Shown here piece by piece: positions 3,574-36,970 of a stretch of 45,646 bases of DNA. A program made the translations under genes and the position numbers. The stretch is from the IMG/VR virus record IMGVR_UViG_3300045978_000095, positions 1-45,646 of that record; one strand, given 5' to 3'. This DNA is from a virus. The stretch's first letter is position 1. Each line of letters starts with the position of its first letter. A model generated the notes under the pieces. That model was not told where the DNA came from and did no database searches. It saw nothing but the letters and a program-made list of their open reading frames with translations.

Positions 3574-4829
3574 GCAGCAGCGTCCTTCTTGCCGCCACGC
3601 AGGCCGGTCACGATGAAGTGCGCCGTCGGATGATGGACTTCCAGACCGCATTCCGCGATATAGCCTGCCTTCATCGCGTCCTGGCCGACCGCCTGCAGAT
3701 CACCCTCGTACTTGAGGTCCTGCAGATAGCGATAGCGAATGAACGGCATGTCCAGAACGTAGACGTTATTCGCCACCGCGTTGAACTGCGTGCCAGCAGT
3801 CGTACCGCCACGCATCTGGTTGAACAGCGGATGGACCTTGAACATCATAGTGCCGAAGGCGCCGGTGATGCGAGTGAACTCCATCCCGTATTCCTTGACA
3901 CCTGTGTCGATGTTGAAGGTGCCGTTCTTCCGGACTGCTGTCGTGAGCGCGAGGAGTGCGACATTGCTGCCGAACGCCACCTTCTCACTCGAGCCATAGC
4001 GGAACGCCGGCTCCATCAGCACCTGCTCGATCCAGTCCAGGTCGATCCGACCATCAGGATCGTAGTCTGCGACGGAGATCACGTTCCCAGGGGCACCGGC
4101 GGTGATCTGAGAGATGATGCCGTCTGTGTAACGGAGAGGCTTGCCGTTCAGTGTAGTCGCTGCCTTCTTGCCGAACCAGAATGCCCGCTCCATGTCGATG
4201 CCAACGTATTCAAGGCACTCACGACGAGCCTCTTTTACTTGGTCACCTGTACGGAGACGGGACTGCATGGCGGTTCGAGTCATCTCCATCGTGGAGCGGA
4301 AGATTTGCGTGTAGTTCGACTTCTCATTCGGATCGTAGTTCACGCCGCTCGGGGCGAGTGAACCTTCCTCGAACGCTGATCCCACAACGACCATGTAGGG
4401 ATTTGCCCCTGCGGCAGTCGGATCGTGAGCGGTGGCCGAAGTGCCGGCAACGCCGCGAGTGACTGTGATGGAAGTTGCCGCAGTCGGATCACTGGCGACA
4501 CGCACCAGTTCACCAGTGCCCTCGATCATCAGAATGTCGCCGGCCTTGACGATGAACGCAGTCTTGTAGGTCTGGTCCACATCAATGCCAGTTTCGGAGT
4601 TGTCGAGGTCTTCGTTGAGCTTCAACCTCCGATCGTCAAGCGCCTTCTCCCACCAGTGGAAGATGGGGTCGTCGGTCTTCTCCGACTTCATCTTCGAGGT
4701 GAGAGCCGTGAGTGGCGCTTTCGCTGCATCAGGGCTGTTGGGATACAGCATGAGAAGCGTCTCACGCCAGTTCTCCGGTCGCTGGTTGGCGACGAAGTTT
4801 GCAGTAGTTCGCAGACCCAGAATGGGCAT
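3570..4829 (-). CDS. Major capsid protein, SU10/DUF5309 type, 419 aa
   Basis: Main shell protein of the head (HK97-fold class). It starts MPILGLRTTANFVANQRPEN. The N-terminal part has the LYPNSPDAAKAPLTALTSKM segment, with PIFHWWEKALDDRR after it. The middle has the long helix region QIFRSTMEMTRTAMQSRLRT and the QVKEARRECLEYVGIDMERA helix. The C-terminal half has VFGSNVALLAL-like and FGTMMFKVHPLFNQ segments. This order is typical of DUF5309 / SU10 major capsid proteins. The start is 11 nt below the stop of the scaffold-like gene, and the stop overlaps the adaptor start. It should be one of the most abundant virion proteins. Confidence 0.85.
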   Translation of the reverse strand: MPILGLRTTANFVANQRPENWRETLLMLYPNSPDAAKAPLTALTSKMKSEKTDDPIFHWWEKALDDRRLKLNEDLDNSETGIDVDQTYKTAFIVKAGDILMIEGTGELVRVASDPTAATSITVTRGVAGTSATAHDPTAAGANPYMVVVGSAFEEGSLAPSGVNYDPNEKSNYTQIFRSTMEMTRTAMQSRLRTGDQVKEARRECLEYVGIDMERAFWFGKKAATTLNGKPLRYTDGIISQITAGAPGNVISVADYDPDGRIDLDWIEQVLMEPAFRYGSSEKVAFGSNVALLALTTAVRKNGTFNIDTGVKEYGMEFTRITGAFGTMMFKVHPLFNQMRGGTTAGTQFNAVANNVYVLDMPFIRYRYLQDLKYEGDLQAVGQDAMKAGYIAECGLEVHHPTAHFIVTGLRGGKKDAAA

Positions 4830-32240: not shown

Positions 32241-33605
32241 ATGCTCACTAACAAGTACAAAAGGCTTCGCCTCGATGAAATCACTGTCGATCGAGAGAAG
32301 CGTCAGCGCAGAGACGTTGACGTTTCAGACCTGGTTGAGAGCATCTCAAGACGAGGCGTTATTCATCCAGTCGTCGTTGAAGTCAAGGATGGACAGAACA
32401 TGCTCGTCTCCGGCGAGCGGCGGTATCTCACGTCGAAGCTTCTTAATCTTCCAGATATACCAGTCCGTTTCGCCCACGACCTCTCCGAGCAAGAGCGGCA
32501 GATCATAGAGCTTGAGGAAAATCTAAAACGCAAAGATCTGCCGTGGCAGGACGAATGCGCCGCCGTGCTCCGTATTCATACAATCTATTGCGAGATTGAA
32601 CATGACTGGACACTCGAGAAAACTGCTACAGAGCTTTCAATCGCGGTTGGAACTGTCTCGATTATGCGACGAGTTGGAGAGGAGCTTGCTGAAGGAAATC
32701 CAAAAATCGCAGGAGCTACTTCGTATCGTCAAGCATACAACATCGTCGCTAGAGCCGACAGCAGAAAAGTTGATGATGCAATGTCTGACATTATTGCAGG
32801 CATTGGACGACCTCAAGTCCCACAGCAAGTCACAACAGCAATTCCAGGTGCATCTGCGGAAGCTCCGAAACAGACTCTTAGCATAATCCCGCCAGAGCAG
32901 TCGATCCACACGCTTGATTTCCTTACCTTCGCTGACAATTATACCGGCAAGCCATTCAACTTCATCCACTGCGACTTCCCCTACGGAGTCGGAATGAACA
33001 AGTCCGCTCAGGGGAACGCGAAGCAGTGGGGCTCATATGAGGACTCCCCTGATACCTACTGGCGCCTTTGCGCCTGCCTTGCGCGGAATGTAGATCGCCT
33101 TATGACCCAAAGCGCCCATCTCATGTTCTGGTTCTCGATGGAGTACTATGAAGAAACATTGGCCTTCTTTGCGGAGAATGCGCCTACTCTTGAGTTCCAA
33201 AAGTTCCCACTTATTTGGTACAAGAGTGACAACAAAGGCATCCTGCCGGATCACAATAGAGGTCCCCGGCGAGTCTACGAAACGGCTTTTATTGCCAGCA
33301 GGAACGACCGTTTCATTGTCAGGCCGGTATCGAATTGCTATCCGTCGCCTGCTGCTAAGGAAGATCATCAGTCCGAAAAAGCGGAACCGATGTTAGCTCA
33401 TTTCTTCCAGATGTTTGTTGATGAGAATACGAGGCTGCTAGACCCGACTTGCGGCTCTGGCACTTCGCTTCGCGCCGCTGAGCGCCTGGGCGCGTCACAA
33501 GTGTATGGCCTCGAAATCAACCCGGAGTATGCAGAAAATGCCAAAACGCGCTTACGCCAAACGAGAGTCCTCCGCGCAGCCGAAGGCCTCAAAAAACCTG
33601 CCTGA
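32241..33605 (+). CDS. ParB-like domain fused to DNA methyltransferase, 454 aa
   Basis: Residues 1-190 match a ParB/Srx-like domain: REKRQRRDVDVSDLVESISR, the SGERRYL motif (57-63) and a helix-turn-helix region (ATELSIAVGTVSIMRRVGEE). Residues 220-450 match a beta-class N4/N6 amino-methyltransferase: the catalytic site is CDFPYG (Asp245-Phe-Pro-Tyr248, where DPPY is usual) and the cofactor loop is DPTCGSGTS (401-409). It would methylate phage DNA to evade restriction, with the ParB part giving DNA binding. Known fusion type in phages; the target sequence is unknown. Confidence 0.86.
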   Translation: MLTNKYKRLRLDEITVDREKRQRRDVDVSDLVESISRRGVIHPVVVEVKDGQNMLVSGERRYLTSKLLNLPDIPVRFAHDLSEQERQIIELEENLKRKDLPWQDECAAVLRIHTIYCEIEHDWTLEKTATELSIAVGTVSIMRRVGEELAEGNPKIAGATSYRQAYNIVARADSRKVDDAMSDIIAGIGRPQVPQQVTTAIPGASAEAPKQTLSIIPPEQSIHTLDFLTFADNYTGKPFNFIHCDFPYGVGMNKSAQGNAKQWGSYEDSPDTYWRLCACLARNVDRLMTQSAHLMFWFSMEYYEETLAFFAENAPTLEFQKFPLIWYKSDNKGILPDHNRGPRRVYETAFIASRNDRFIVRPVSNCYPSPAAKEDHQSEKAEPMLAHFFQMFVDENTRLLDPTCGSGTSLRAAERLGASQVYGLEINPEYAENAKTRLRQTRVLRAAEGLKKPA

Positions 33606-33897
33606 GATGAGCAGAGAAGAACTCGGCCAGTATGTCGCGAAAATCATCTCGGACGACCGGAACTCTGTTCACGGCAATCCGCACAAGCAATTCTCGACAC
33701 AGGTCGATGTGTTCAATCGACTCATCCAAGACTGCAAGAGCCTGAATAGCACACAAGCCCACGCGGTCATGCAGATCACGACCAAACTCTCTCGCATCGC
33801 GAATGGTGATCCAGACCATCACGATCACTGGATCGACATTGCAGGCTACGCACTCATCGCCGCTGAGGCTTGTGGTAAGGACCCAGTAGAACTGTGA
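33538..33897 (+). CDS. DUF6378-like protein, 119 aa
   Basis: Start chosen at 33538 (GGAG 10 nt upstream; overlaps the gene before by 68 nt); a later ATG at 33607 lacks a ribosome site. The part SVHGNPHKQFSTQVDVFNRL, then THAVMQITTKLSRIANGDPD and DHWIDIAGYALIAAEA matches DUF6378 phage proteins (HG..., IARI..G, DNWVDIAGYA), of unknown function; some relate to nucleotide-binding MazG-like helix bundles. It stands between DNA modification and repair genes. The first 24 residues are basic. Confidence 0.68.
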   Translation: MPKRAYAKRESSAQPKASKNLPEMSREELGQYVAKIISDDRNSVHGNPHKQFSTQVDVFNRLIQDCKSLNSTQAHAVMQITTKLSRIANGDPDHHDHWIDIAGYALIAAEACGKDPVEL

Positions 33898-34958
33898 TTG
33901 AAAGCAATCCCTGCATCCGTGCCTTCGGGCCGAAGGACGCCAAGATCGCACTCGTTGGCGAGGCGCCCGGCGCTGAGGAGGAGAAAGTTGGCCTCCCCTT
34001 CGTCGGCTATTCCGGCAATGAACTCCGCCAGATGTGTACGGAGGCAGGGATTGACTTCAACAAGACCTACCGCACAAATGTCCTGTGGACTCGCCCACCT
34101 CTCAACAAGATCGAGAGCTTCTATGTCAAACGAGAGTCCCTTCCTTCAACCTATCCCTTTGGACCAGTTGCATCTGGCAAGTATCTATCCCCTGTCTTTA
34201 TCCCTGAAGTTAATCGACTTTATGAGGAACTCAAAACACTCCGCCCTAACATCGTCATCGCACTTGGCAATGTGGCGTGCTGGGCACTCCTTGCAACTAC
34301 TGGAATTAGCAAAATCCGCGGAACGACTGCCGCCAGCTCACCACTTGGCGGCATTAAAGTATTTCCAACCTTCCATCCGGCGAGCGTCCTCAGAAACTGG
34401 GAACAGCGGGTGATCGTCGTAGCAGACTTGATGAAAGCACTCCGTGAGAGTGCATTTCCTGAGGTCCGTCGTCCGCAGAGGTTCGTCACCATCAATCCAT
34501 CGCTGGAGGAAATCCGCGATTGGTACTTCCGATACGCCCTTGGCGCTGCGGCGATCGGTGTGGACGTAGAGACACGGAACGGACATATCACTATCGCCGG
34601 CTTCGCGTCCAGCCCAAAGCACGCCATAGTAATCCCACTCGCGGACTTACGACAGCAGGACTCCTGCTACTGGCGCACCCTCGAAGACGAGATAGAAGCC
34701 CGCCGCTGGATACAGAAGTTCCTACTCCTCCCACAGCCCAAAATCTTCCAGAATGGAATGTACGATATACAGTATTTCCTTCGCGAAGACTTCAAACTCC
34801 ATAACTGTCTCGAAGACACGATGCTTCAGCATCACGCCATTTTCCCGGAGCTGCCCAAGTCGCTAGGTTTCTTGGGTTCTATCTACACAGACGAGCCCGC
34901 ATGGAAACTCATGCGACCGCGGGCTAAAGAAGCAGATCAGCTAAAGAAGGATGAATGA
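33894..34958 (+). CDS. Uracil-DNA glycosylase + 3'-5' exonuclease (N-terminal part of split DNA polymerase), 354 aa
   Basis: GTG start overlapping the stop before. Residues 1-185 match family-4-type uracil-DNA glycosylase: motif 1 GEAPGAEEE...PFVG (22-38) and motif 2 HPASVLR (161-167). Cys residues that hold the Fe-S cluster in that family are mostly absent (RPP motif has TNVLWTRPP, without the usual Cys). Residues 215-340 match the family A exonuclease: Exo I DVET (Asp224, Glu226) and Exo II NGMYDIQYF (Asp291), then LQHHAIFPELPKSLGFLGSI. The third exonuclease motif lies in the polymerase gene at 35450, so this domain is broken over two proteins. The ends must assemble, or proofreading is lost. 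Confidence 0.86.
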   Translation: MIESNPCIRAFGPKDAKIALVGEAPGAEEEKVGLPFVGYSGNELRQMCTEAGIDFNKTYRTNVLWTRPPLNKIESFYVKRESLPSTYPFGPVASGKYLSPVFIPEVNRLYEELKTLRPNIVIALGNVACWALLATTGISKIRGTTAASSPLGGIKVFPTFHPASVLRNWEQRVIVVADLMKALRESAFPEVRRPQRFVTINPSLEEIRDWYFRYALGAAAIGVDVETRNGHITIAGFASSPKHAIVIPLADLRQQDSCYWRTLEDEIEARRWIQKFLLLPQPKIFQNGMYDIQYFLREDFKLHNCLEDTMLQHHAIFPELPKSLGFLGSIYTDEPAWKLMRPRAKEADQLKKDE

Positions 34959-34959
34959 T

Positions 34960-35463
34960 ATGGCAGTTATTCGAGTCATCATTGAGAGCCCATTTAAGGG
35001 CGAGACTGTTGAAGAGCGGATGGAGAACATCAAGTACGCCAGAGCTGCATGCCGAGATGCAGTTATGAAACAAGAAATTCCTATGGCTTCTCATCTCCTG
35101 TACCCCCAATTCCTGGCGGAGGAAAACCCGCACGAGCGGAACATCGGCATCCAGTCCGGCTATGTGTGGTGGGACATAGCTGACAAGATCATCTTCTACA
35201 TCGACCGCGGTATGTCAGACGGTATGATCGAGGCCTTCCGCAAGGCGGCGAATGAGAAACGTGTGTTTGAGTTTCGTTATCTCGAAACTGGCGTTTCGGT
35301 GAAGATGCCAGAGCAGGTGATGGAGAAGAAGGTCTTAAAGGAAGAGGAAGAATTGCCACTCGAGATGCCAGAACCTGATCACATGCCTTCTGGCGTTCTA
35401 ACGATGGAAGACCTTCTCCCGAAGAACGAAGTTCACAAGGTTCCCCCTCGTGCCCGTAGTTGA
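34960..35463 (+). CDS. DUF7768 protein inserted within the polymerase locus, 167 aa
   Basis: The start at 34960 is preferred (AGAAGGA 8-9 nt upstream, 1 nt after the stop before); an ATG at 34951 overlaps that stop. The part VIRVIIESPFKGETVEERME, then IKYARAACRDAVMKQEIPMA, SHLLYPQFLAEENPHERNIG and IFYIDRGMSDGMIEAF matches DUF7768, a Rossmann-like fold related to nucleoside 2-deoxyribosyltransferase-type proteins. After residue 115 it has a tail with SGVLTMEDLLPKNE, an LTLEDL-like motif. It lies between the two halves of the exonuclease domain. The stop overlaps the polymerase start by 14 nt. Confidence 0.78.
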   Translation: MAVIRVIIESPFKGETVEERMENIKYARAACRDAVMKQEIPMASHLLYPQFLAEENPHERNIGIQSGYVWWDIADKIIFYIDRGMSDGMIEAFRKAANEKRVFEFRYLETGVSVKMPEQVMEKKVLKEEEELPLEMPEPDHMPSGVLTMEDLLPKNEVHKVPPRARS

Positions 35464-36970
35464 CACTTCCACCCTAACCCCCGACTCGAAAGGTCACGAC
35501 AGCCACCAAGTCTACAACGGACTCGATGCCTGCGTGACCGTCGAGGTTTGGCGTGATCTGTGCTCGAAGATGGACGAGCGATCGCAGATCATTTATAATT
35601 TCGAGCGTGGAATGCAGGCGCCCGCTCTCGACATGATGAGACGAGGGGTTCTGATCGACCCCTATGAGAAGCGGAGCGGGATTGAAAAGATCACTGAGTC
35701 CCGCGAAAAGGTGCTCGCCATTTGGGATCGCTATTGCATCGCGACAGTCGGCCGGCCGCTCAAGATCACGTCCACAAAAGACCTATCTTGGCTGTTTTAC
35801 GAAGCCATGCGCCTTCCGGTGCAGCATGAGCGTCGGCCAAACGGAGAGCGATCGCCGTCGGTAGGTCGGAAGGCACTGGAGAAGTTGCAGCTATATCTCT
35901 ACGCCCGCCCCTTCATCGAGTGTATCTTCGCCGCGAGGGAAGAGAAGAAGCTCCTTGAAGTCCTCCAGAACAAGGTCGATGACGATGGCCGAATGCGGAC
36001 TTCTTATAACGTTGCGGGAACTGAGACAGGCCGCTGGTCCAGCTCCAAAAATGTCACCGGGGGAGGTGGTAACTTCCAGAACATTACCGCACAGTTGCGA
36101 CGTATGTTTATCTCGGATTACGGTAAGAAAATGTGTGGGATCGACCTGGAGCAGGCTGAGTCTCGTGTGGTTGGGCTCATTGTCTTCTGGCTTTTTGGAG
36201 ACACTAAGTATCTCGATGCCTGCGAAGCGGGTGACCTGCACACATTTGTCACGAGGATCATCTGGCCGAATCTTCCTTGGACCGGAAATGAGAAAGACGA
36301 TAAGGAAATCGCTGAGCGACAATTCTACCGAATGTTTACCTACCGAGACATGGCTAAACGTGGAGGTCACGGCACCAACTATTACGGCACGGCTTTCACG
36401 ATGGCTCAGAACCTTAAAGTTCCGAAGGGGATGATGGATGCGTTCCAAGAACAGTACCTTGGCGAAGGTGGTTTCCCAGGCATCCGCAAGTGGCACCGCT
36501 GGACGGCGGAGCAACTCCAAACTCTCCAGTATATTGATACTCCATTTGGTGACAGAAGGTACTTCTTCAGCCGACCGGGCGATGACTCAACTCTTAGAGA
36601 AGCGATTGCGCACGTTCCACAGAGCGTTGTTGGAAGACTGCTTAACCTCATCCTATGGCGTCTCTGGAGATACCTTCCTGAAGTCGAGCTACTCTTCCAA
36701 GTCCACGATGCAGTATATTTCCAGTACAACGACAACCCGGAAGTCGAGCAAAAAGTCGTCTCGAAAGCGTTAGAGTTATTCGCTGTGCCTATCACACTCA
36801 ATGGCCGCACCATGATAATCCCTGGTGAGGCGAAAGTGGGATGGAACTGGGCTAACGAGAAAGACAAACGTATCAAGAATTGGGTAAATCCCAATGGACT
36901 GAGAAAATGGAATGCGGACAAGCCCGATGACAGGAAGCGGCTCATCGGATTGGATCGACCAATATCTTGA
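35450..36970 (+). CDS. Family A DNA polymerase (C-terminal part with Exo III motif), 506 aa
   Basis: GTG start (35450). Residues 22-26 (YNGLD, YxxxD) are the third exonuclease motif, so the gene starts inside the exonuclease domain. Polymerase motifs: TETGRWSSS (191-199), motif A DLEQAESR (Asp232), motif B RDMAKRGGHGTNYYG (299-313; Arg299, Lys303, Tyr311) and motif C QVHDAVYF (His419, Asp420). The usual HDE of motif C is HDA here. The O-helix position equal to Phe762 of E. coli Pol I (Tyr526 of T7) is His307. Catalytic aspartates are intact, so it is probably active and would copy the phage genome. Confidence 0.9.
   Translation: MPVVDTSTLTPDSKGHDSHQVYNGLDACVTVEVWRDLCSKMDERSQIIYNFERGMQAPALDMMRRGVLIDPYEKRSGIEKITESREKVLAIWDRYCIATVGRPLKITSTKDLSWLFYEAMRLPVQHERRPNGERSPSVGRKALEKLQLYLYARPFIECIFAAREEKKLLEVLQNKVDDDGRMRTSYNVAGTETGRWSSSKNVTGGGGNFQNITAQLRRMFISDYGKKMCGIDLEQAESRVVGLIVFWLFGDTKYLDACEAGDLHTFVTRIIWPNLPWTGNEKDDKEIAERQFYRMFTYRDMAKRGGHGTNYYGTAFTMAQNLKVPKGMMDAFQEQYLGEGGFPGIRKWHRWTAEQLQTLQYIDTPFGDRRYFFSRPGDDSTLREAIAHVPQSVVGRLLNLILWRLWRYLPEVELLFQVHDAVYFQYNDNPEVEQKVVSKALELFAVPITLNGRTMIIPGEAKVGWNWANEKDKRIKNWVNPNGLRKWNADKPDDRKRLIGLDRPIS

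Follow-up and report, generated by a model that had tools for sequence, protein, structure and literature searches.

Proofreading and synthesis are normally carried out by one chain in family A DNA polymerases, and a viral locus in which the motifs of one such enzyme are divided between two genes raises the question of whether the pieces still make a single proofreading polymerase. The locus lies in IMG/VR record IMGVR_UViG_3300045978_000095, analyzed here over its whole length of 45,646 nucleotides (nt; hereafter, the window). It comprises three open reading frames (ORFs) on the forward strand: a gene for a protein with a uracil-DNA glycosylase (UDG) domain and most of an exonuclease domain (the UDG-exo half; 33894-34958, GTG start, 354 residues), a DUF7768 gene (34960-35463, 167 residues), and a polymerase gene (the polymerase half; 35450-36970, GTG start, 506 residues). 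The most probable explanation, in our judgment, is one ancient split, with two polypeptides that assemble into one proofreading polymerase and with gap genes that this assembly does not require.

The exonuclease motifs and the break between them

The Klenow-type (DEDDy) exonuclease signature combines Exo I (D-x-E), Exo II (N-xxx-D), and Exo III (Y-xxx-D), and all three motifs are present at the locus, spread over two polypeptides. The UDG-exo half harbors Exo I (D224-V-E226; 34563-34571) and Exo II (N287-G-M-Y-D291; 34752-34766) within residues ~197-342, which match Klenow by profile and make up most of a 3′-5′ exonuclease domain. Exo III (Y22-N-G-L-D26; 35513-35527) is located in the segment of about 60 residues (~1-60) that opens the polymerase half. 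This segment is followed by the family A polymerase domain (residues 79-441; Pfam DNA_pol_A, PF00476, E value 1.5e-26, over the cut-off), which contains the motif A aspartate D232 (36143-36145) and the motif C aspartate D420 of a QVHD sequence (36707-36709). By family profile, the UDG-exo half matches Klenow chain residues 13-121 (15-122 in another profile match) and the polymerase half residues 160-601, so the exonuclease domain itself is interrupted, with the break falling after Exo II and before Exo III. On the phage DNA polymerase family PHROG_17 (phrog_17; 1445 columns), the first ORF covers columns 477-796 and the third 809-1236, and alignment to single-chain relatives shows that no motif has been lost from the two fragments taken together. 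The window contains only this one family A polymerase. The sequence-only reading of the locus had thus identified the three ORFs, their frames, and the distribution of the exonuclease motifs correctly.

The glycosylase domain occupies residues 11-171 of the UDG-exo half (33924-34406; Pfam UDG, 2.3e-23). The protein belongs to the UDG superfamily by PF03167 and is family-4-like: the family-4 model TIGR00758 matches at 8.7e-28, yet with 97 bits against a curated cut-off of 125. In the Pfam search neither half of the window matches PF01612 (DNA_pol_A_exo1) at an E value of 0.001; a single-chain relative, L003, matches it over the cut-off (4.4e-6).

Relatives were found by IMG/VR searches with the polymerase and exonuclease parts, classified mechanically, and pooled, some contigs being present twice. 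The same split, at the same position of the fold, is found in 157 loci with 110 distinct polymerases, which form 91 clusters at 90% identity; single-chain relatives were also recovered. The exonuclease and polymerase ORFs are separate, too, in three contigs of bacterial metagenome-assembled genomes from GTDB (L212, L213, and L217). The closest named phage, the plaque-forming isolate Caulobacter phage Kuura (OQ067476), contains the same break, with Kuura_029, annotated as hypothetical, corresponding to the UDG-exo half and Kuura_026 to the polymerase half. In the available part of the Kuura paper, only "a DNA polymerase" is reported and the split is unmentioned (PMC9959647). Recurrence of an identical break in 157 loci is far beyond chance and, judging from the genes, a replicative polymerase is made as two proteins in a large, mostly uncultured phage group.

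Across the 91 clusters the exonuclease carboxylates are essentially invariant over both genes. The aspartate and glutamate of Exo I are present in 155/155 aligned rows, the asparagine of Exo II in 157/157 and its aspartate in 155/156, and the tyrosine and aspartate of Exo III in 157/157. The polymerase residues are equally constant, with the motif A aspartate found in 156/156 and the motif C aspartate in 153/153 aligned rows, and the arginine and lysine of motif B are conserved as well. The ratio of nonsynonymous to synonymous substitution rates (dN/dS) is ~0.01-0.24 for both the core of the exonuclease and the segment with Exo III in pairs with unsaturated synonymous sites, and by this measure both halves are under purifying selection. 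That the polymerase gene has kept Exo III is explicable only if this motif completes the other chain's exonuclease site.

These data bear on the possibility that proofreading has been lost or has become optional, the polymerase half acting alone and the UDG-exo half serving as a separate repair protein. Separate genes could indeed differ in expression level, and the glycosylase domain by itself could explain why the first gene was retained. However, Exo I to Exo III are essentially invariant, purifying selection acts on both segments, and Exo III would be useless on the polymerase gene without the other half. We therefore consider this explanation improbable, and with it the suggestion of the sequence-only reading that proofreading is off.

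Two chains or one

The fold of the halves was examined with structure prediction. AlphaFold2 modeled the UDG-exo half alone with a mean predicted local distance difference test (pLDDT) score of 91, with the last 11 residues disordered, and Foldseek matched the model to family 4 UDG/UdgX, the phiLo family A polymerase (9qhs), and the Klenow exonuclease domain. The pair was folded with AlphaFold from a relative, L057, whose polymerase half is 46% identical to that of the window and whose halves share a frame, with the 76-codon intergenic stretch read through as a linker. In the linked model (pLDDT 78, predicted template modeling score 0.73, linker pLDDT <50), the new N terminus of the polymerase half forms a short strand (residues 426-429), and the Exo III helix (residues 441-468) is predicted with confidence. 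The model matches the whole Klenow fragment with a template modeling (TM) score of up to 0.78 (target-normalized, 726 alignment columns), a value out of reach for the polymerase half alone, as that half spans ~74% of Klenow.

Assembly of the two halves in trans, as had been proposed from the window, is well supported by the essentially invariant catalytic residues, the low dN/dS, and the linked model; this support is comparative, and its structural part comes from the chain of a relative. From it we infer that the halves associate physically and that, once assembled, they would proofread. In the proposed enzyme, the uracil glycosylase would come from the first chain, along with the greater part of the exonuclease domain, including Exo I and Exo II. 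The second chain would contribute the entire polymerase domain and, ahead of it, the final helix of the exonuclease, which bears Exo III. Upon association of the chains, the Exo III helix would complete the exonuclease site in trans, and the product would be a proofreading polymerase with a tethered glycosylase.

A different outcome would be that the halves are rejoined into a single chain, whether before translation or after it. Splicing of a group I or group II intron could do this, as could a split intein, programmed bypassing, or programmed frameshifting. Introns and endonucleases are frequent in phage polymerase genes, and an intron was raised as a possibility for the split PolA of OM43 phages by the authors who described it (PMC10580990). 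Yet Rfam introns were detected in none of the window and 13 related loci, and Pfam revealed no intein domain on the halves of the window. In L066, L180, and L212, moreover, there is no gap gene and the ATG of the polymerase overlaps the stop codon of the exonuclease (TAATG or TGATG), an arrangement that leaves nothing for splicing. Both halves also have regular ends. The UDG-exo half terminates 19-23 residues past Y331 in nearly all split loci, and its C-terminal tail, K-K-D-E in the window (34944-34955), usually reads K(K/R)(D/E)(D/E) in relatives. The codons for the tail lysines and arginines vary synonymously among relatives, so selection apparently acts on the protein and not merely on a ribosome site. 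The polymerase half usually starts ~24-29 codons ahead of the Exo III aspartate (85 loci with starts listed). Given these features, we assign rejoining only a slight probability.

Genes in the gap

The distance between the halves ranges from −1 nt (L066, TAATG) to 2793 nt (L064). The contents of the gap were surveyed in 101 gap ORFs from 55 lineages with Pfam and PHROGs. By Pfam, DUF7768 occupies the gap in 12 of the 55 lineages, and other gap ORFs belong to DUF1937 (5), Nuc_deoxyrib_tr (4), and DUF7220 (3), with single cases that include a DNA ligase and a YfbR-like protein; PHROGs added pyrophosphatases. The DUF7768 family, which the gap gene of the window matches at 4.5e-27 (Pfam; phrog_355, 3.8e-14), is nucleoside 2-deoxyribosyltransferase-like, and the deoxyribosyltransferase-like families (DUF7768, DUF1937, and Nuc_deoxyrib_tr) together account for 21 of the 101 gap ORFs. 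Such ORFs recur in L014, L042, L054, L060, L062, L090, L092, and other loci, a recurrence hinting at a functional preference over random cargo. Sequence searches returned no solved-structure relative of DUF7768, and a literature search for the family gave no publication. The DUF7768 gene of the window has an alternative in-frame ATG at 34951, a start that would overlap the upstream UDG-exo gene.

The sequence-only reading had considered DUF7768 as a bridge or regulator of the split enzyme. Its recurrence in the gap of 12 lineages fits such a role, and the presence of DUF1937 and Nuc_deoxyrib_tr in the gaps of further lineages makes a metabolic link possible. Against this, the complete genome of Kuura, in which the break is as in the window, contains no DUF7768 and has two small, unrelated ORFs in the gap; L066, L180, and L212 lack a gap gene altogether; and relatives of DUF7768 are present in 375 phage records, T4-like Yersinia phages among them. 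The role of structural bridge or regulator is accordingly unsupported and, to our minds, very unlikely. As an essential third subunit, DUF7768 was rejected on the evidence of the Kuura genome and the gap-free loci. From its distribution, DUF7768 is an exchangeable passenger of the gap. In the proposed scheme it would be one of many swappable small gap genes, often nucleotide-metabolism or HNH genes, that are unneeded for assembly.

Although adjacent ORFs differ in frame, as a sequencing or assembly error might make them, comparison of loci rules such an error out, as no single indel could join three ORFs that each lie in a different frame, a second IMG/VR record (L005) carries three identical ORFs, and the break is shared by the 91 clusters, with varied gap lengths and genes, and by the Kuura isolate, all in keeping with the earlier conclusion that the layout is not a simple sequencing error.

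Origin of the break, precedents, and meaning

In the polymerase trees, single-chain UDG-exonuclease-polymerases (MW202489, the Microcystis phage Mel-JY34, and L120-L132), which contain all the motifs in one ORF, are the outgroups. The split loci form one branch in each tree, with a Shimodaira-Hasegawa-like approximate likelihood ratio test (SH-aLRT) value of 99 in an 88-row quick tree and 90 in an 85-row quick tree, and with ultrafast bootstrap/SH-aLRT values of 95/99 in a careful 42-row tree. This favors one origin of the split. Within the single-chain group, an HNH endonuclease gene (ORF 4043-4480, 145 residues; phrog_3377, 8.8e-28) has, in a separate event, broken the polymerase of L134 in this connection between the two motifs, Exo II and Exo III. 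The polymerase is uninterrupted in L129 and L131, which are nearest to L134 (78% identity). The L134 insertion is a candidate for a recent homing event. In the split group, HNH_3 endonucleases make up 6 of the 101 gap ORFs by Pfam.

Division of phage genes by endonucleases has been described. In phage Aeh1, NrdA is split by the HNH endonuclease mobE and the two polypeptides form a fully functional enzyme (PMC2988022), a case that resembles the origin proposed here in that an endonuclease insertion in a critical region led to two polypeptides. It differs in that the enzyme is a ribonucleotide reductase and, in the available part of that source, the split is a single phage case and not clade-wide. 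In the T4-like Aeromonas phages 25 and 44RR, the replicative polymerase consists of two pieces, gp43A and gp43B; those of phage 25 copurify and are active, and in this phage the split is accompanied by a seg endonuclease (PMC2988022). These are two-piece replicative phage polymerases like that of the window, but they belong to family B. Taken with L134 and the HNH-bearing gaps, the analogy with the mobE and seg cases suggests that a homing-endonuclease gene probably started the split here too. An ancestral single-chain UDG-exonuclease-polymerase would have been interrupted a single time, at a surface connection that links Exo II to Exo III, and a large phage clade would since have kept the two polypeptides encoded by separate genes.

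Several points weigh against a single split followed by assembly in trans. The trees resolve the deep branches of the split group poorly, and there is no endonuclease in the window's own gap, where the gap gene is DUF7768. In addition, the fold model was built from a relative's halves joined via an intergenic frame, and the L057 alignment, with its paired rows and six natural single-chain rows, itself favors joining.

The sequence-only reading knew of no described polymerase laid out in this way. That holds for the exact layout, as the open-access literature searched yielded no account of a family A polymerase with its break between Exo II and Exo III, and a literature search for UDG-domain family A phage polymerases gave no publication; it does not hold for split phage polymerases in general, which are known (PMC2988022, PMC10580990). 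Thus, as far as searched, splitting of a replicative phage polymerase is a known phenomenon, and the Exo II/Exo III break in family A is new. SPO1 gp31, Mel-JY34, MW202489, and L120-L132 have the same domains in the same order, with Exo I to Exo III and the polymerase motifs, but in one continuous ORF, whereas the window has two genes with gap genes between them. In the OM43 phages MEP401 and MEP402, PolA is also split, but the break falls within the polymerase domain, and the first ORF contains the complete exonuclease domain (PMC10580990). Like the enzyme of the window, this PolA belongs to family A and is encoded by two ORFs with a small unknown ORF lying between them, a layout shared by most members of that lineage.

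Other interruptions were observed among the loci. In L009 (Vibrio phage VS-ABTNL-3; 4956-8090), PolA is split in the polymerase domain just past LNLQNLPKGDG, with a 184-residue ORF of unassigned function in the gap, a layout as in the OM43 phages. In L007 (MW202554; 1727-4364), the polymerase is split just past Exo III, and an 86-residue NrdR-like zinc-ribbon ORF overlaps the gap. In L053 (2857-3991), the UDG-exo half itself is interrupted, the UDG part stopping early and being followed by a separate 121-residue ORF, which points either to a polymerase in three pieces or to an erroneous frameshift. Among the gap ORFs of the set, one matches DNA_pol_A_exo1.

In the window, a DUF6378 gene (33505-33897) shares four bases with the beginning of the UDG-exo gene, an overlap that may couple the translation of the two genes. 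Two genes upstream of the UDG-exo half, at 32241-33605, a ParB N-terminal domain is fused to an N6/N4 DNA methyltransferase, and an ORF resembling this fusion sits before the exonuclease half in L006. Downstream of the polymerase is a DUF3987 gene, in the same position as in Mel-JY34.

A more far-reaching proposal, which we regard as doubtful, is that the UDG-exo half serves as a proofreading subunit that can come off the polymerase. The exonuclease site would then form only on assembly, and the new N-terminal strand of the polymerase half and the conserved K(K/R)(D/E)(D/E) motif at the end of the UDG-exo half would be evolved docking elements. If so, the phage could, by way of the dose or binding of this subunit, adjust its fidelity or link the removal of uracil to replication. 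The split also explains why the first half is annotated as a hypothetical protein, as in Kuura. Because the catalytic site is divided, the exonuclease could be mixed in, mutated, or withheld independently of the polymerase, both in vitro and in infected cells, and a natural split polymerase becomes available for engineering. Finally, the loci line up as a natural progression that begins with a fresh insertion (L134), continues with a fixed split carrying varied cargo (the clade), and ends with a cargo-free split (L066, L180, and L212); it would be useful for testing how an insertion turns into a permanent two-subunit enzyme.

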